Translations under genes and position numbers: made by a program
The notes under the pieces: model-generated
Databases searched by the model: none
What the model was told of the DNA's origin: nothing
What the model saw: the letters and a program-made list of their open reading frames with translations, nothing else
Assembly: GCA_001303705.1 (NCBI GenBank)
Contig: LJUI01000108.1
Span: 1 to 8,631 of the forward strand
DNA length: 8,631 nucleotides
Reading direction: 5' to 3'
DNA from: a candidate division TA06 bacterium SM23_40
Lineage (GTDB): Bacteria > LJUI01 > SM1-40
Part shown: positions 360 through 8,631 of the stretch, in pieces
Numbering within the stretch: position 1 is the stretch's first letter
How the letters are laid out: each line of letters begins with the position of its first letter

Positions 360-375
360 AGCAAGATGCATGCCA
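360..375 (-). promoter_or_regulatory. Predicted sigma-54 (-24/-12) promoter of the PilV-like gene
   Basis: On the minus strand the sequence reads TGGCAT-GCATC-TTGCT, against the sigma-54 consensus TGGCAC-N5-TTGCA/T. The invariant GG and GC are exactly ten bases apart. Transcription would start near 349, giving a leader of about 82 bases to the ATG at 267. The first bases of that leader can form a small GTGG/CCAC hairpin (335-349). No convincing copy of the palindromic activator site found at 5291-5330 lies in the usual range upstream. Confidence 0.72.
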
Positions 376-385
376 CGCCCGGACA

Positions 386-421
386 GAAAAATCGCACCCT
401 TCGGCAGTCTTAAGGTGCGAT
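386..421 (-). terminator. Candidate intrinsic terminator with T-run downstream of the regulator gene
   Basis: On the minus strand an 8-bp stem, ATCGCACC (421-414) with GGTGCGAT (398-391), closes a 15-base loop and is followed by a run of five T (the last base of the stem plus four). It sits about 170 bases after the regulator stop codon and immediately upstream of the sigma-54 promoter at 360-375. It would insulate that promoter from read-through. The loop is long for a classic terminator, so a regulatory role is also possible. Confidence 0.55.
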
Positions 422-589: not shown

Positions 590-1954
590 CTACGTCAGGC
601 CATACTTCCTTGCTTTCGTCAGCAGGGTCTTATACGTCACTCCCAGCCGCCGTGCCGCTTCGCTCTTGTTGCCGCCTGTCTCGGCAAGCACCTTCCTGAG
701 CACCTGACTCTCCGCCATCCGGGCACCGTGCTCGGCAACCTCCTTAAGCCCACCGAGCATCCCCAGATCGTCCCCGGGCAACTCGATCGAATCCTCTCGC
801 ACCCAGATGTGCTCGGAACAGATCTCGCGATCGACCGCAAGTATCGCCGCCCTCTCGATCGCGTTCTCGAGCTCCCGCACGTTGCCCGGCCACGAGTAGT
901 GCTCCAGCTTACGCAGAGCCTCGGGCGTAACGGTCAGCTTCTCCCTCTTCAGCTCGCCACGATACTTCTCGAGCAGATGATCCACGAGCAGCGGAATGTC
1001 CTCGCGCCTCTCGCGCAGAGGTGGAATGTGGATCGGGAAGACGCTCAGCCGGTAATAGAGGTCCTCCCTGAAGCTCTTCTCCTTCATCTCGCTCAGGAGG
1101 TCCTTGTTCGATGCAGAAATGACGCGCACCTCTACGCTGATCGTCTTCGTGCCTCCCAGGCGCTCGAACTGCCGCTCCTGGAGCACCCTGAGAAGTTTCG
1201 CCTGGAGCGCGAGATCGAGGTCGCCCACCTCATCGAGAAAGATCGTCCCTTTATCGGCCAGCTCGAACTTCCCGATCTTCTTGCCGACCGAGCCGGTGTA
1301 CGCCCCCCGCTCGGAGCCGAAGAGTTCGTTCTCCAGCAGCTCGTGGGGTATGGCGGCACAGTTGATCGGCACGAACGGAAACTGCTTTCGGAGACTCATC
1401 GTATGTATTGCGCGGGCGAAGAGCTCCTTCCCCGTCCCGCTCTCGCCCATCAGCAGGACGTTCGCGTCGCTGGGCGCGACCTGACGCACGAGCTCCATCA
1501 CCTTCGTGATGGCAGGGCCCTCGCCGATGATCGTCGGCAGACCCTGTGTATCTGAACACGCCTCCCTCAGCAGTATGTTCTCTGTGAGGAGGTTCCGCTG
1601 CTCCAGGGCGCGCCTGATCAGGAGGAGGAGATGATCGGCGTCGAACGGCTTTGCGAGAAAATCGTAAGCTCCCTCTTTCATCGCCTGCACAGCAGTCTCG
1701 ATCGTGCCGAACGCGGTCATCACGATGACGATGGTGAGCGGATCTTGATCGCGTACCGCACGCAGAACCTCCAGCCCGCTCTTCCCGGGAAGCTTGAGAT
1801 CGACGAGAACGATGTCATACGAGCGACTCTTCGCTTTCGCGATCCCTTCCTCGCCATCCGCGGCGGTATCGACATCGAGCCCCTCGGCACGCATGGTATG
1901 CATCAGCATGCGGCGCATGCTCTCTTTGTCTTCGATGATGAGGATCGAGTCCAT
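590..1954 (-). CDS. NtrC-family sigma-54-dependent response regulator (PilR-like)
   Basis: This 454-residue protein is a full-length activator of sigma-54 RNA polymerase. Residues 1-120 are a receiver domain with the acidic pocket at Glu8/Asp9, phospho-acceptor Asp52 in VDLKLPG, Thr80 and Lys102. The AAA+ ATPase covers about 140-380: Walker A GESGTGKE (170-177), Walker B GTIFLDE (236-242), the FREDLYYRL arginine-finger segment near 296-303 and WPGNVRELENA (355-365). The C-terminus (about 428-448, GGNKSEAARRLGV) is a Fis-type helix-turn-helix. The loop that touches sigma-54, normally GAFTGA, reads GAYTGS here (217-222). The ATG at 1954 lies 3 bases after the kinase stop, with a weak AGAGGGA site, so the two are probably translationally coupled. 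The cognate kinase and the pilin genes alongside make PilR-like control of pilin transcription the best reading. Its binding sites are probably the palindromes at 5291-5330. Confidence 0.95.
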   Translation of the reverse strand: MDSILIIEDKESMRRMLMHTMRAEGLDVDTAADGEEGIAKAKSRSYDIVLVDLKLPGKSGLEVLRAVRDQDPLTIVIVMTAFGTIETAVQAMKEGAYDFLAKPFDADHLLLLIRRALEQRNLLTENILLREACSDTQGLPTIIGEGPAITKVMELVRQVAPSDANVLLMGESGTGKELFARAIHTMSLRKQFPFVPINCAAIPHELLENELFGSERGAYTGSVGKKIGKFELADKGTIFLDEVGDLDLALQAKLLRVLQERQFERLGGTKTISVEVRVISASNKDLLSEMKEKSFREDLYYRLSVFPIHIPPLRERREDIPLLVDHLLEKYRGELKREKLTVTPEALRKLEHYSWPGNVRELENAIERAAILAVDREICSEHIWVREDSIELPGDDLGMLGGLKEVAEHGARMAESQVLRKVLAETGGNKSEAARRLGVTYKTLLTKARKYGLT

Positions 1955-1957
1955 GGA

Positions 1958-3127
1958 CTATTCCCTCTCTTCGCCTTCTTCTCTCCCCTCAACCGGGAGC
2001 AGGATTACAACCGTCGTACCCCTGCCCAGCTCACTCTCGACGTGTATCTCCCCTCCGTGTGCCGATACGATCTTGTGCACGAGGCTGAGACCGAGTCCGA
2101 CGCCATCATCCTTGAGCGTGAAGAACGGATTGAAGATACGCTCAAGATTCTCGGGGGCAATCCCGACCCCTGTATCCGCGAAGCGGACCGTCACTCTGTC
2201 CGTCGCCTGTCGCTGGTAGCAGGAGACGACGAGCCGGTCGCCCTCGGCCATTGCCTCGATAGCGTTCTGTGCTACGTTGGTGAACGCCTGTCTCAAGCGC
2301 AGCGGATCTCCCATGACGGGCGGCAGTGTCGGTTCGGAATTGCACTCCAGCGAGACTCCGGCATCGGCAATCCGCGACTCCAGCAGGCGGAGTGCTTCCC
2401 CGACGATCTCCGGAACAGAGACCGATTCGGGCATCAGCCCGGCCGGCTTTGTGAAGTCGAGAAACTGCTGGAGCACACCCTCCATGCTCTTGCACTCGCG
2501 CACGATATCGCCGAGAGGTTCGGCCCCACGTCCGGGCCTGGGATCGAGCTGGCACTCGAGCAGCCTGGCAAATCCCAGAATCGTCCCCACGGAGTTCCGG
2601 AGCTCGTGCGCAATACCCGCCGACATCTCCCCCAGCGCAGCAAGGCGCTCCTTGGTCGCCACTTCCTCCTGGAGCCGTCTCACCTCTGTGATATCGCTGA
2701 GAATGAATGTAGCACCATCAACCGCTCCGGCCGCATCCCGGAGCAGGGATGTGGAGATCCCGAGCCAGACTTCGCGTCGTCCCCCCAATCTCACGGGGAG
2801 TTCCACCCGAGAGCGTACACGTTGCTCATCAAGTGCCTCCCTGATGAGGTTGATGATCCTGACCTCACCACAGAAGACGTCGGCGGCGTCGCGGCCAAGC
2901 GCCTCCCCCGGCTTCAGGCTGAAGATCTCCCGTGCTGCACGATTGGCGTAGGTGATGCGACCAGCGCGGTCGAAATTCATGACCCCGGATGAGATGGACT
3001 CCAGGATATCAAGATGGCCCCCTACGAGCGTCGATGCGCGATGTGCGTCCTCGACAGACTGCGATCGCATCACATCGCCCCCTGCTCCTGCCCTCCCTTT
3101 TGTGCTACCGCCTTGGCCGACCGTCAC
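1958..3127 (-). CDS. Cytoplasmic PAS-domain sensor histidine kinase (NtrB/PilS-like)
   Basis: This 389-residue kinase should phosphorylate the regulator encoded just downstream. Residues about 35-148 form a PAS domain (GVMNFDRAGRITYANRAA and ending FILSDITEVRRLQ). The HisKA dimerisation segment carries phospho-acceptor His174 in GIAHELRNSVGTI. The ATP-binding domain shows the N box NVAQNAIEAM (284-293), the G1 box FADTGVGI (316-323), the F box NPFF (333-336) and the G2 box GVGLGLSLV (342-350). No transmembrane helix or signal peptide is visible, unlike classical PilS with its six membrane helices, so the signal is probably sensed in the cytoplasm. The start is the GTG at 3127, chosen because AGGAGG lies 8 bases upstream. 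The alternative is the ATG at 3070, which has an AGGGGG seven bases upstream. The acidic tail EEGEERE ends the protein. The Pro often seen after HExRN is Ser here. Confidence 0.93.
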   Translation of the reverse strand: MTVGQGGSTKGRAGAGGDVMRSQSVEDAHRASTLVGGHLDILESISSGVMNFDRAGRITYANRAAREIFSLKPGEALGRDAADVFCGEVRIINLIREALDEQRVRSRVELPVRLGGRREVWLGISTSLLRDAAGAVDGATFILSDITEVRRLQEEVATKERLAALGEMSAGIAHELRNSVGTILGFARLLECQLDPRPGRGAEPLGDIVRECKSMEGVLQQFLDFTKPAGLMPESVSVPEIVGEALRLLESRIADAGVSLECNSEPTLPPVMGDPLRLRQAFTNVAQNAIEAMAEGDRLVVSCYQRQATDRVTVRFADTGVGIAPENLERIFNPFFTLKDDGVGLGLSLVHKIVSAHGGEIHVESELGRGTTVVILLPVEGREEGEERE

Positions 3128-3946: not shown

Positions 3947-3988
3947 CGGCTTATCGTCGAGAGATCGCTCCCCTTCCCCTGGAGCAAC

Positions 3989-4414
3989 CTAGGTGCCAGT
4001 CGTAAGCGTGAGGGCGAGCAGCGTCCCTCCTCTGCCTGCCCCACGGATCCTGTACACTCCTGATCCGTAAGTGTCGTGGTCATACCCCACCTCTCCCTCA
4101 GTCAGACTGTCGTAGTTCCCGAGCGCGTTCCCTCCGGAAAATGGATTGGAGAAGTTGCGTGGCGACTCCACTGTGAATGTATAGGTATCCGCCGCGTAAT
4201 TGCCGTCGTGTGCGGTGCAGTATTCTTCCACCATTATCTGGAGTGTGTGCATATTCGCCTTGACCGACGCCTCACGCGCATTGTTCCGGAGATTGATGTG
4301 ACCCCCGATGGCAATCGCTGCCAGAATGCCCATTATCACCAGGACCACCATCATCTCCACGAGCGTGAAGCCGAATTCATCCTTCAGTCTGACAAGGCGC
4401 AAACGTTCTGACAC
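3989..4414 (-). CDS. Second type IV pilin-like protein, paralogue of the upstream pilin
   Basis: This 141-residue prepilin has a 15-residue charged leader ending in Gly15, then FTLVEMMVVLVIMGILAAIA with Glu at mature position 5. The start is GTG at 4414, the only plausible one after an in-frame TAA at 4423-4421; AGGAG lies nine bases upstream. It shares with the upstream pilin the stretch EASVKANMHT, a HDGNYA/NDGNYA turn, an NPF motif, a YDHxTYG motif and a C-terminus of the form LTLTxG, so the pair arose by duplication. It differs in lacking the conserved mature Pro22 (AIGGHI instead of AIPNFI) and in having one cysteine (Cys66), so no internal disulphide is possible. It may be a minor pilin, an alternative subunit or a pseudopilin. 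A 265-base gap with a hairpin separates it from the first pilin. Confidence 0.9.
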   Translation of the reverse strand: MSERLRLVRLKDEFGFTLVEMMVVLVIMGILAAIAIGGHINLRNNAREASVKANMHTLQIMVEEYCTAHDGNYAADTYTFTVESPRNFSNPFSGGNALGNYDSLTEGEVGYDHDTYGSGVYRIRGAGRGGTLLALTLTTGT

Positions 4415-4679: not shown

Positions 4680-5096
4680 TTACTGGCCAGACGTGAGCGT
4701 GAGGGTAAGAACCGAGCTCTTGCCGTAGCCCTGGATCGTGTACCCGGTGGCTCCGTACGTGGCGTGGTCGTAGTAGACAACGCCCTGAGCGTTTGCAGTG
4801 CTGCCTGATGTGATCGCACCGCTGCCCGTGGCGCCGGTGAACGGATTCTTGAAGTTCGTCGGCAACATGGCCGCGAGCGTGGTGTGAATGTTGGTGTGAC
4901 CAGCATAGTTGCCATCATTCATCACCGCGTAGTCCTCGACAGCGAGTTGCGCCGTGTGCATGTTCGCCTTGACCGATGCCTCCTTGGCACGGTCCTGCAT
5001 CCTGATGAAGTTCGGGATCGCGATTGCGGCCAGGATCCCGATGATGACCACGACGATCATCAGCTCGATCAGGGTGAAACCACGTTCGCTACGCAT
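4680..5096 (-). CDS. pilA: Type IV pilin, probable major subunit
   Basis: This 138-residue prepilin has a very short leader, MRSERG, cut after Gly6, then FTLIELMIVVVIIGILAAIA with Glu at mature position 5 and the conserved Pro22 (AIPNF). The helix continues through RAKEASVKANMHTAQLAVED. The globular part has NDGNYAGH, the segment LPTNFKNPFTG (78-88), a Gly/Ser/Thr-rich loop and VVYYDHATYGATGYTIQGYG, ending LTLTLTSGQ. There is no cysteine, so no C-terminal disulphide loop. The ATG at 5096 has an unusually complete ribosome site, TAAGGAGGTG at 5114-5105, as expected for a highly expressed gene. It stands behind a consensus sigma-54 promoter, two palindromic sites and a 5' leader hairpin, and is followed by a strong 3' hairpin. 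Together these point to the main fibre subunit. The NPF region also resembles GspG-type pseudopilins, so a type II secretion-like role is the main alternative. Confidence 0.9.
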   Translation of the reverse strand: MRSERGFTLIELMIVVVIIGILAAIAIPNFIRMQDRAKEASVKANMHTAQLAVEDYAVMNDGNYAGHTNIHTTLAAMLPTNFKNPFTGATGSGAITSGSTANAQGVVYYDHATYGATGYTIQGYGKSSVLTLTLTSGQ

Positions 5097-5104
5097 TGTC
5101 CTCT

Positions 5105-5114
5105 CACCTCCTTA
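5105..5114 (-). promoter_or_regulatory. Extended Shine-Dalgarno site of the first pilin
   Basis: The minus strand reads TAAGGAGGTG, complementary over ten bases to the usual 16S rRNA 3' tail. It lies 8 bases before the ATG at 5096 (10 from the GGAGG core). It is the strongest ribosome site in the window. Confidence 0.85.
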
Positions 5115-5147
5115 CCTGTGGGTTTTTTGTGACTCTCCATCGATATC

Positions 5148-5164
5148 GCGAGCGGGTAGCTCGC
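5148..5164 (-). promoter_or_regulatory. Stem-loop at the predicted 5' end of the pilin mRNA
   Basis: GCGAGC and GCTCGC flank a 5-base loop. If transcription starts about 12 bases below the -12 element (near 5169), the stem begins only about five bases from the mRNA 5' end. Such terminal hairpins are known to slow 5'-dependent mRNA decay, which would suit an abundant structural protein. Confidence 0.5.
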
Positions 5165-5179
5165 TCACCTATGACTAGT

Positions 5180-5195
5180 AGCAAATCCTGTGCCA
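5180..5195 (-). promoter_or_regulatory. Sigma-54 (-24/-12) promoter of the pilin gene
   Basis: The minus strand reads TGGCAC-AGGAT-TTGCT, a full match to the consensus TGGCAC-N5-TTGCA/T, with GG and GC ten bases apart. The predicted start is near 5169, leaving a 72-base leader. The regulator encoded at 590-1954 is of the class required to activate it. Confidence 0.92.
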
Positions 5196-5290
5196 ACAGG
5201 ACGGATGCAATCTCGATGCTCATAAGCCAATGTCATGGTGGAAGTTGCGCGCCGATGCTCATGCGCCTGCTGATCATCGATCTGCCCACA

Positions 5291-5330
5291 GATGTTCGCA
5301 TCATGCGAAAATCTATCGCAGCGTGCGAAA
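5291..5330. promoter_or_regulatory. Two tandem palindromes: candidate upstream activator sites
   Basis: The first site is TTCGCATCATGCGAA (5295-5309), a perfect 7-bp inverted repeat around one base; it extends to 5291-5313 with a single mismatched pair. The second is ATCGCAGCGTGCGAA (5315-5329), with TCGCA/TGCGA arms. The centres (5302 and 5322) are 20 bases apart, about two helical turns, so dimers would sit on the same face. They lie about 133 and 153 bases upstream of the predicted start, the usual range for enhancers of NtrC-type activators. They fall between the glycosyltransferase stop codon and the pilin promoter. That the neighbouring regulator binds them is inference. Confidence 0.7.
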
Positions 5331-5335
5331 CAGCA

Positions 5336-7561
5336 TCACTGGAACGACCAGTGATGAAAGGAGTGAAACCGACCGGAGAGCTCGATGGTCGTCTCCTCCC
5401 CGTCGATCATAGACCCGGGGATCCGTACCATCCGCTCTTCCCAGGTCTCGGCCTGGCGCGGCGGCAGCCACTCACCGACCTTCTCTCCAGCTACGAAGAC
5501 CTGAATTGGCTCTTCCTCGGCACTTCCCAGCCCCCGTAGTATCAACGTACCGTACACGAGCGTCAGCAGATTCGCCCTGGCTGCAACTCGTGTCACGAGC
5601 ACGAGATCGCGGCCGGGAACGGTGCGCATGGTGAACCGCTCGGCGCCCCAGACATATCTCCCGCCATCGGCGACCGGTACGTCCCCGTGCGAGGGGCTCG
5701 CCAGCAGGGCCAGCGAAGTCCAGAACTTCGTCCCCGGAGCGGTGACGTAGTTCTCATACGAATGGCCCGCCTCGCTGGGGAGGTAGGCCGCATCCAGCTC
5801 ATCCGTCAGATCGAGGCCCTCCACCTCCCCCGAGATGTAGGGATCGAGGGGCATCGTTCCCGAGCCGATGTTCAGCCAGTCAGCGCGGTACAGCGCAAGG
5901 TGCGTGTGAAACGGCTCTCCTGCTACGCAGACCTGTGTGGACCATATACGAAGCAGGTCGTCAATGCCGGGGAAATTCACCTTTGCCACGTCCTGGATAG
6001 CCAGGTATGCGGGGCGGTCTTTCATCGGCATGTGCTCGAACACCTCCCAGACCGTGCCCCAACCGGTCGTCATCGCCCCCATGAACGGCCGGGAGACGAG
6101 GCCGACGATATCGACGATGGGCCGGTTCCCATAGTACTTCAGTATCCCCACGTCTACTACCGCCACCGCACGCCCCAGGGGGAGGTTTCCATCGATCCAG
6201 TGGGCCATTGCCTCATACTGTATCAGGCTCGTCCCGCTTTCCGCGACATGCGCTGAAATCGCCGGCGCGATTGAGCAGACCGAAAAGAAGATGAAGAATG
6301 ACATGACCGCCCAGAATATGTGGTAGTCCCGGAGGCCGGAACGTTCGCCGAGGACCCGCGCCACCCAGCTGATGCCGATCGGCACGAAGGCGAGGATGAT
6401 CGGGAAGTAGGGCAGGATGTAACGGTGGCGCTGGAATCCCCGCGCCGTGGTGAATGCGACCAGCCCGATGCCTCCCACAAGCCAGAGGGCCGAAATGACC
6501 GCCCACCCGGCCCGCTTCGATGTGAGCTCGTGCAACAGGACAAAGACGATGCCGAGGAGGAAAAACAGGAACGTGAGCGGAGGAAAGTAGGTCGACACCC
6601 CCTCCCCCAACAGCCCTACAGCAACGTTGTCAGGATAGGAGCCCGCGAAGATACCTTTCATCACATCGGCGAGGTACTGAAAGGAGGTTCGAATCGACTC
6701 GAGGGGCGGGACCCACTGATGGATCATCTTTGTCTGGCCGGAGCTAGGCGCCAGCCGGCCGGTCAGCAGGAGATTGAGGGCGAGTGTGGCAAGGCCCGCG
6801 GCCACGGGAATCGCCAGCCAGACGAGAGCTCTCGTCGAGCGTCTCGGCCCCGCGGCCACATCCGGCGCCCGGGAGAAGAGATGATTCCACAGAAGTGCGC
6901 CCACCATGAGCAGCACGATGAAGAACCCCTCGGGCCTCGTGAGAGCCAATCCGCACGCGAGGAAGGATACCGGCCATCGTATCTCACCACGGGAGCCGGC
7001 GATTGTCGCCAGAATACCGACCACGAACAGCGTGTACAGCCCCACCTCCATCCCGCTGAAGAACCCCCATGCGATGGCCCCGTTGGCAATGAACAGGATG
7101 CCGGCGGCCATGCCGATCCGATGCCCTCCGAAGGCGACGCCCAGACGGAAGACATAGAGTGTGGCGATGACGAAGGTGAGGACGCCGAAGAGGTAAGAGA
7201 AGGCGACAAGCCCCTGTCCTTTGAACCCGACGAGATACGCCGCAGCGAGCACGAGTTGATAGAGGAGGCTCGTTCCGCCGGTGCTGGGAGGGTCGCCCGT
7301 GTTGTACTGGAACGGATGGCCGGTGGCGAGCTGCCGCGCGTACTGGAAGGAGACATACGAGTCGTCGAGCGGTGCGACCCAGCGCCCTGCGGTGTACGTG
7401 AGCATCTCCTGGATGAAGAGGATAGAGACCAATAGACAGATGCAGACGAGAAGAACGCGAAAGGCCGCAGGCGATATCTTCGTCCCTTCCGGCGGCGGCA
7501 CTCCACTAGACTGGCTATCTTTCGATGCGGACCTGACCGCTGCGGGAGCAAGTGGACTCAT
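5336..7561 (-). CDS. GT-C-fold membrane glycosyltransferase-like protein
   Basis: This 741-residue protein has a cytoplasmic N-tail, one membrane helix (34-54), and then the first extracytoplasmic loop APLDDSYVSFQYARQLATG (63-81). The DD pair (66-67) in such a loop is the usual catalytic/metal site of GT-C enzymes that use lipid-linked sugars. About ten more hydrophobic helices follow to about residue 435. Other family-like motifs are FSGMEVGLYTL (168-178), LTRPEG (207-212), RHRYILPYFP (378-387) and DVGILKYYGNRPIVDIVGL (470-488). Residues 440-741 form a large, apparently extracytoplasmic domain with a beta-rich end. Donor and acceptor cannot be read from the sequence. Its ATG overlaps the upstream stop codon (ATGA), so the two genes are coupled. 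The pilin follows after 239 bases that hold its own promoter. TfpO and TfpW glycosylate pilins from genes beside pilA in Pseudomonas, so pilin modification is a reasonable hypothesis. Cell-surface polysaccharide or lipid modification is the alternative. Confidence 0.82.
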   Translation of the reverse strand: MSPLAPAAVRSASKDSQSSGVPPPEGTKISPAAFRVLLVCICLLVSILFIQEMLTYTAGRWVAPLDDSYVSFQYARQLATGHPFQYNTGDPPSTGGTSLLYQLVLAAAYLVGFKGQGLVAFSYLFGVLTFVIATLYVFRLGVAFGGHRIGMAAGILFIANGAIAWGFFSGMEVGLYTLFVVGILATIAGSRGEIRWPVSFLACGLALTRPEGFFIVLLMVGALLWNHLFSRAPDVAAGPRRSTRALVWLAIPVAAGLATLALNLLLTGRLAPSSGQTKMIHQWVPPLESIRTSFQYLADVMKGIFAGSYPDNVAVGLLGEGVSTYFPPLTFLFFLLGIVFVLLHELTSKRAGWAVISALWLVGGIGLVAFTTARGFQRHRYILPYFPIILAFVPIGISWVARVLGERSGLRDYHIFWAVMSFFIFFSVCSIAPAISAHVAESGTSLIQYEAMAHWIDGNLPLGRAVAVVDVGILKYYGNRPIVDIVGLVSRPFMGAMTTGWGTVWEVFEHMPMKDRPAYLAIQDVAKVNFPGIDDLLRIWSTQVCVAGEPFHTHLALYRADWLNIGSGTMPLDPYISGEVEGLDLTDELDAAYLPSEAGHSYENYVTAPGTKFWTSLALLASPSHGDVPVADGGRYVWGAERFTMRTVPGRDLVLVTRVAARANLLTLVYGTLILRGLGSAEEEPIQVFVAGEKVGEWLPPRQAETWEERMVRIPGSMIDGEETTIELSGRFHSFHHWSFQ

Positions 7562-8631
7562 GGTTCTACCCTCTCTCGATCCTCGGGAGGTGGCATCTCC
7601 GACCCCTGTCCTGACAAACCGCCGGGGGGCGCGTACTGCTCAACGCCCCTCATCCGCGCCCGCTCGAACAGCACCCTCGCACGTTCCAGTTCAGGATCGA
7701 GTGCCACAGCTCTTGTGTAGGTGGCGTATGCCTCATCGAGACGGCCCAGCGCGGCATTGGCCAGGGCAAGATTGAATAGAGCGCTTGGGTCATCGGGAGA
7801 ACGAGCAATGACCCACACAAAGAGCTCGCGTGCCCGCGCATGATCCCCCAGCCAGCCGTAGGCAGAACCGAGATTGTACCGCACGTCGATCGACGAGGGA
7901 TCGAGGCTGAGTGCCCGCTCGAGCGGCCCGACCGCGGCACCGGGATCGTGCTGCTGGAGCCGCGCCAGGCCGAGGTTGTAGTAGTAGTCGGCACGGGGAA
8001 GGCTCGAGCTGGCGATCGCTCCTTCGAAGTAGGGCACTGCCTCGCGCACCCAGCCAGCATCGAGGAGATCCGTACCCACGCTGTTCATCGCCCAGGCGTT
8101 CCCGTCGGCGAGCCTCCCAGCCCTTCGGAATTCGAGGTGCGCTCCCGTCGTGTCGTCCCGCAACAGGAGCTGCGCACCGCGCCGCAGATGGTACGTGACG
8201 AGCAGGTCCCGGGACATGAAATCATGGACAGCGTCTTCGTCTCCCAGATTGCGGAGCCCGGGCAGCCGGGGAAGTTGCGAGATCTCGACCTGCTCTGTGG
8301 GGCGAATCACGCGGTAGACGAGCCCCCAGGGGAGCAGCCCATAGCCTCGTTCCGCGAGATGGCGGTACACCCCATCAGTCACATAGTAGACCGGGACGTC
8401 GGTCGTGTCGATGAAGCCCGTCTCCACCGCGGCGCGGACACGGTCCCGATCCTCACCGCGGGCGTCCCGCGGTATTGAAGCGTAGAACGCCCCGTCCACG
8501 ACTCCCTCGCGTTCGCAGATCGTAACGTCAGCCCGCTCACCCTCGACCATGGCGAGGTAGTACAGAGGGAAACTGATGTTGTCGCCCTCGACGAAGAGGA
8601 CGGCCCGATCCTCGAGGGTCTCGAGTACTCC
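7558..8631 (-). CDS. DUF2723-like protein with C-terminal TPR repeats (N-terminus outside window)
   Basis: The frame is open to the right edge, giving 357 visible residues. The first ATG in the window (8550) is not the true start, because conserved-looking sequence continues upstream of it. The visible start, RAVLFVEGDNISFPLYYLAMVEG (about 10-31), with RADVTICER next, matches the GDNxxFPLxYLxxVEGxRxDV motif that follows the membrane helices in DUF2723 proteins (TMEM260-like, related to GT-C enzymes). Four TPR units follow at about 178-211, 214-247, 248-281 and 282-315 of the visible part, with the usual W/Y-N-G-A-F/Y-A-P spacing, for example ADYYYNLGLARLQQ and ALSLDPSS. The C-tail is proline- and charge-rich (PPGG and EMPPPEDRERVEP). 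No membrane helix lies in the visible part; the helices would lie upstream. The TPR tail probably holds partner proteins. The 4-base ATGA overlap with the glycosyltransferase suggests a joint role. Confidence 0.8.
   Translation of the reverse strand, partial: GVLETLEDRAVLFVEGDNISFPLYYLAMVEGERADVTICEREGVVDGAFYASIPRDARGEDRDRVRAAVETGFIDTTDVPVYYVTDGVYRHLAERGYGLLPWGLVYRVIRPTEQVEISQLPRLPGLRNLGDEDAVHDFMSRDLLVTYHLRRGAQLLLRDDTTGAHLEFRRAGRLADGNAWAMNSVGTDLLDAGWVREAVPYFEGAIASSSLPRADYYYNLGLARLQQHDPGAAVGPLERALSLDPSSIDVRYNLGSAYGWLGDHARARELFVWVIARSPDDPSALFNLALANAALGRLDEAYATYTRAVALDPELERARVLFERARMRGVEQYAPPGGLSGQGSEMPPPEDRERVEP

Follow-up and report, generated by a model that had tools for sequence, protein, structure and literature searches.

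The region upstream of the type IV pilin gene in the window (the whole 8,631-nucleotide stretch of DNA analyzed here) is quite likely the pilA switch of a PilSR/sigma-54 circuit, read by a PilR protein encoded on another contig of the same genome (C101), with the kinase and activator encoded in the window forming a second system. Judged from its sequence, this combination of palindromes and promoter looks like a genuine on-switch for the pilus gene. Within the source genome, the motif marks essentially one promoter.

Paired palindromes and a sigma-54 promoter upstream of the pilin gene

The pilA-like gene, the predicted target of the module, occupies positions 4680 to 5096 of the minus strand. 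Upstream of it on the same strand is a sigma-54 promoter, TTGGCACAGGATTTGCT (5181 to 5195), with GG at -24 and GC at -12 separated by ten bases. It matches TGGCAC-N5-TTGC exactly, which bears out the full-consensus -24/-12 promoter described in an earlier note on this DNA. Because the C of the -12 GC is at 5181, transcription is predicted to start at 5169. The pilin mRNA would then have about 73 nt of 5' leader, with a strong Shine-Dalgarno sequence, AAGGAGGTGA (5104 to 5113, minus strand), ahead of the ATG at 5096. No sigma-70-type promoter was found at 5050 to 5400.

Two enhancer-like palindromes lie farther upstream on the minus strand, both in the intergenic region that runs from the upstream gene's stop (5336) to the pilin start (5096). 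The proximal one, TTCGCATGATGCGAA (5295 to 5309, center 5302), is an exact TTCGCA-N3-TGCGAA, and the distal one, TTCGCACGCTGCGAT (5315 to 5329, center 5322), is one change from it. Measured from the predicted +1, their centers lie 133 and 153 bp upstream, exactly 20 bp apart, and these distances, given in the earlier note, are correct. From the 13-bp cores to the TGG of the promoter, the gaps are 100 bp (proximal) and 120 bp (distal). The arrangement at -133 and -153 is that of NtrC-type enhancers, which are palindromic dimer sites, usually paired, about 80 to 200 bp upstream. A perfect palindrome with 6-bp arms plus a second near-copy arose in 3 of 4,000 dinucleotide shuffles of the intergenic region, even when any palindrome sequence, any spacer of 0 to 8, and any distance between copies were accepted. 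No IHF site was found between enhancer and promoter at one mismatch or fewer.

Other genes and promoters of the window

The window encodes an NtrC-family activator (590 to 1954, minus strand) that ends VTYKTLLTKARKYGLT and has the recognition helix VTYKTLLTK, together with its presumed partner, a PAS histidine kinase (1958 to 3127, minus strand), as the earlier note had said. Compared with the kinase encoded on C101, no PilS transmembrane domain was found in the PAS kinase. A second pilin-like gene (3989 to 4414, minus strand) probably shares a transcription unit with the pilA-like gene. An exact TGGCAC-N5-TTGC at 3984 to 3998 (minus strand) overlaps its stop codon, just upstream of a prepilin peptidase gene, and no enhancer-like site was found above this match.

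Downstream of the activator gene, a second sigma-54-like promoter, TGGCATGCATCTTGC (361 to 375, minus strand), precedes a minor-pilin gene starting at 267. Minor-pilin genes next to related activators (L066, L072, L094, and G368) likewise have sigma-54-like promoters upstream, and the minor-pilin promoter of the window is a likely target of the window activator. It has no TTCGCA-type motif, and no shared palindrome was seen by eye above the minor-pilin promoters of the window, G368, and G390. After the activator gene, a stem, TCGCACC/GGTGCGA, followed by five T's (390 to 421, minus strand) contains the same TCGCA/TGCGA letters and is a probable intrinsic terminator.

Directly upstream of the palindromes is the gene of a 741-residue, apparently multi-membrane-span protein (5336 to 7561, minus strand) with no Pfam or NCBIfam match, adjoined by a gene for a TPR protein (7558 to 8550). 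A run of N's in contig C63 (L145, 8632 to 8663) starts at about the end of the window, which makes this edge an assembly gap.

Distribution of the motif in the source genome

The source genome (2.88 Mb in 189 contigs) contains rpoN, with a Sigma54_DBD match at G000:C101:44050-44520 (195.8 bits), and about 18 full-length NtrC-family activators. The exact 12-letter palindrome TTCGCA-N3-TGCGAA occurs once in the genome. Matches with at most one change occur in 7 places, compared with about 6 by chance, and the window pair accounts for 2 of the 7. The 10-letter core TCGCA-N3-TGCGA has 8 exact occurrences, including the window pair. None of the six others (on C16, C19, C37, C45, C91, and C106) has a convincing sigma-54 promoter within 300 bp; the best nearby were one promoter match with two mismatches and one with a single mismatch that overlaps the palindrome itself. 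Similarly, no comparable site was found within 150 bp of the other exact sigma-54 promoters of the genome, where the best agreed at 10 of 12 positions when the scoring was relaxed. The palindrome is not a genomic repeat in these searches.

With both the six other cores and the other exact promoters searched, we rejected a wide regulon in the source genome, and the suggestion of a new regulon motif proved too broad. Elsewhere in the genome (L016, G000:C88 near 25300), an exact sigma-54 promoter has a different inverted repeat, TGCGACC-N5-GGTCGCA, about 100 bp above it, which is probably the site of another activator.

Recurrence of the motif in other genomes

We searched 386 genomes sampled across bacteria for the joint pattern of TCGCA-N3-TGCGA, a gap of 85 to 115 bp, and TGGCAY-N5-TTGC. 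The pattern matched 7 genomes, the source genome among them, compared with none for the reversed pattern and one for a control palindrome matched in geometry and GC content. Two of the matched genomes, G368 and G101, belong to one phylum, different from that of the source. When seven genomes of this phylum were examined, six had an exact match and the seventh carried TTTGCAATGTGCGAC, with one core change, in the same place. The gaps from core to TGG were 94, 94, 94, 94, 95, 96, and 96 bp in the seven genomes. Downstream of each site is a pilin gene whose product begins M(K/R)G(N/Q)(R/K)GFTLIELMIVVVIIGILAAIAIPNF, very similar to the start of the window pilin, and the gene directly upstream of pilA, as read at L094, L165, L166, and G239, is a pilR ending INTSTLYRKLQRYG. 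In G368, pilC, pilS, pilR, and pilA follow one another in a row. Most of the phylum has one clear site, and the tandem pair is not conserved. That the palindrome is kept at a fixed distance above pilA in another phylum supports the earlier note's reading of a sigma-54 control module with paired enhancer-like palindromes.

In G288, G149, and G248, the operons below the palindrome are not pilin operons, and the activators next to it have ATLYRK or STLYRK helices; the palindrome is present twice in both G288 and G149. At the loci of these two genomes (L161 and L162), an NtrC-family gene (ATLYRK) and a receiver-domain gene are separated by tandem TTCGCA-type palindromes about 40 to 41 bp apart, and the next gene downstream of the receiver-domain gene appears to encode a lysine-2,3-aminomutase-type protein. 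The match in G342 has no activator beside the palindrome.

Identity of the activator that reads the site

The palindromes are most likely read by the standard pilus regulator, PilR, encoded on C101, rather than by the window activator. Among source-genome activators with readable sequence, the best match to the PilRs of the G101 phylum was the C101 activator (about 16751 to 18109), at 470 to 486 bits; the window activator scored 363 to 364 bits against the same PilRs. The C101 PilR has a receiver, an AAA+ domain, and a Fis-type HTH, ends GIHLSTLYRKIRAYGI, and carries the helix STLYRK, which no other source-genome activator has among the 16 of 18 that were readable at the C terminus. Its gene follows two pilB-like genes, pilT, pilC, and the gene of a kinase with a 6TM_PilS domain, so that a PilS and PilR pair sits within a pil operon, and the order pilC-pilS-pilR agrees with that in G368. 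Because the source genome has pilA on one contig and pilR on another, we paired them by orthology: the window has a sigma-54 pilin gene, and the C101 PilR is orthologous to the pilR that adjoins such a gene in the other phylum.

The earlier note had instead linked the module to the activator of the window, which with its kinase would bind the palindromes and activate the pilin gene, some 3 kb upstream from the activator gene. The two genes lie near each other in the same orientation, and control of neighboring genes is frequent among two-component activators. However, every activator found beside the motif has an (S/A)TLYRK helix, unlike VTYKTLLTK, for which the nearest PDB entry is ZraR. Moreover, no sigma-54 promoter with this palindrome above it is present at the loci of the window activator's relatives in Nitrospirae, Zixibacteria, and Acidobacteria, among which those with its type of helix are in Nitrospirae and Acidobacteria. 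Linkage in the G101 phylum also argues against this assignment. There, the pilus cluster contains a second activator a few kilobases farther downstream, ahead of minor pilin genes, with a helix (SYRSLW) related to that of the window activator, which points to a separate system there too; with both activators in the cluster, it is PilR that adjoins the motif. The motif-free minor-pilin promoter of the window likewise counts against it. On the grounds of recognition helix, orthologue loci, and linkage, we rejected the window activator as the reader, and its proposed role at the pilin promoter is unlikely and probably wrong.

It is still less probable that both activators act at the pilin promoter and have the palindromes in common. 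Sharing of this kind has a precedent in LuxO and SypG of Vibrio fischeri (PMC10162802), and both activator systems sit in pilus clusters, but the two recognition helices differ strongly and no second motif was found. That the palindromes are not enhancers at all, with the distal one serving the upstream gene as a weak intrinsic terminator or both being unrelated hairpins or repeats, is highly improbable. A simple scan does flag 5328 to 5316, a 5-pair stem followed by TAGATTTT, but the exact proximal copy has no T run. The near-constant spacing above pilA in the seven genomes of the other phylum, the recurrence ahead of unrelated operons, next to activators with an STLYRK or ATLYRK helix, and the absence of genomic repetition all weaken this reading, and we set the terminator aside as weak. 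Weighing against PilR itself, STLYRK helices are common among NtrC-family proteins and two of the 18 source-genome activators were unreadable at the C terminus, so that another activator could bind instead. The tandem arrangement that is not conserved and the three independent PilR-pilA loci scoring like shuffles (described below) also count against it.

Bacterial enhancer-binding proteins bind their sites as phosphorylated dimers, oligomerize, and, through DNA looping, reach the polymerase and remodel its closed complex. With PilR as the reader, sigma-54 RNA polymerase would wait at 5195 to 5181, and the membrane kinase PilS would phosphorylate PilR, both being products of the pilB-pilT-pilC-pilS-pilR operon on C101. 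PilR dimers would then occupy both TTCGCA-N3-TGCGAA palindromes, which are separated by two helical turns, assemble into an AAA+ oligomer, and loop to the polymerase to open the promoter, so that the pilin gene is transcribed. The kinase and activator of the window would more likely serve the minor-pilin promoter (375 to 361).

A protein-led search for PilR-pilA loci

In an independent test, we searched with the C101 PilR protein rather than with the motif, which gave further PilR genes followed by pilins, and scored the regions above their promoters against shuffles. The relaxed letters (C/T and G/A) used in scoring were picked after G239 and the LuxO site had been seen, which makes the shuffle P values somewhat optimistic. 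Sites resembling TYGCA-N3-TGCRA were present above pilA in further families: in G136 (L241), TTTGCATAATGCAAT starts 105 bp before the TGG (P = 0.005), and in G068 (L250), ATTGCAGATTGCGAA is at 134 bp (P = 0.002). Scores were moderate for G209 (L245, P = 0.005), G174 (L254, P = 0.028), and G328 (L247, P = 0.01) and marginal for L265 (P = 0.064). The PilR-pilA loci L244, L243, and L258 were no better than shuffles (P = 0.13, 0.23, and 0.5).

Implications and relation to known enhancer systems

The claim of a new regulon reduces to a predicted PilR site of LuxO type at a single promoter, recurring across uncultured lineages. With slightly less than even confidence, we tentatively suggest that a wide range of uncultured phyla inherited TYGCA-N3-TGCRA as the PilR enhancer of pilA, and that this site follows from the STLYRK helix shared with LuxO. 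If this is true, enhancer sites could be predicted from the helix sequence alone, and with them which of many NtrC-family proteins controls a given sigma-54 promoter. If such a helix-to-site rule holds, sigma-54 activators, which often number dozens in one genome, could be paired with their promoters from sequence alone. The motif also offers a concrete candidate cis site for pilin control in lineages without genetics, and the window illustrates how proximity can misassign a regulator.

The earlier note had suggested that the motif is neither the classical PilR nor the classical NtrC site, and this is correct. Neither hallmark of Pseudomonas aeruginosa PilR sites, TGT-N11-AGA and GTCT (cited in PMC6058289), was found at 5097 to 5335, which excludes a Pseudomonas-type site but not control by PilR. 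The NtrC enhancer shares with the window paired dimer sites above a sigma-54 promoter but differs in sequence and spacer, and its core, GCAC-N5-GGTGC, is absent from the pilin control region of the window. The NmpR site of Myxococcus xanthus (GCGCA-N5-TGCGC; PMC11841059) is also a tandem palindromic enhancer with an NtrC-like regulator and a link to the pilus circuit. However, it has a 5-bp spacer and other outer letters and acts on pilR, not pilA, and it was not found in the same control region. None of the open-licence papers covered by our literature search gives TTCGCA-N3-TGCGAA as a PilR site.

In sequence, the motif resembles the LuxO and SypG enhancers of Vibrio, with the upstream activating sequences TTGCAWWWTGCAA and TTCTCANNNTGMDWN, the former being the LuxO site (PMC10162802). 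Like the window, these have a palindrome whose inner halves, GCA/TGC, flank a 3-bp spacer, a pair of such sites located about 100 bp above the sigma-54 promoter, and a similar recognition helix (PMC10162802, PMC11407668). The critical residues of the LuxO helix, Ser423, Ile425, Tyr426, Arg427, Lys428, and Leu429 (PMC11407668), fit S-x-I-Y-R-K-L, matching the STLYRK(L/I) of the motif-adjacent PilRs. Exact TTGCAWWWTGCAA is absent from the pilin control region of the window, but the relaxed form TYGCA-N3-TGCRA contains it and fits both window palindromes. The systems differ in that the window has TCGCA rather than TTGCA, the target is a pilin gene rather than small RNAs or polysaccharide genes, and the candidate regulator is an orthologue of PilR, not LuxO. 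With the PilSR-sigma-54-pilA circuit of P. aeruginosa, Geobacter, and Myxococcus, the common features are a sigma-54 pilin promoter, a PilR-type NtrC-family activator, a PilS with a 6TM_PilS domain, and pilB, pilT, and pilC as neighbors; here, however, pilSR is on another contig than pilA, and the helix is STLYRK. By these likenesses, the predicted module is of a known kind, PilSR/sigma-54/pilA with a LuxO-type enhancer, and has a little-described site.
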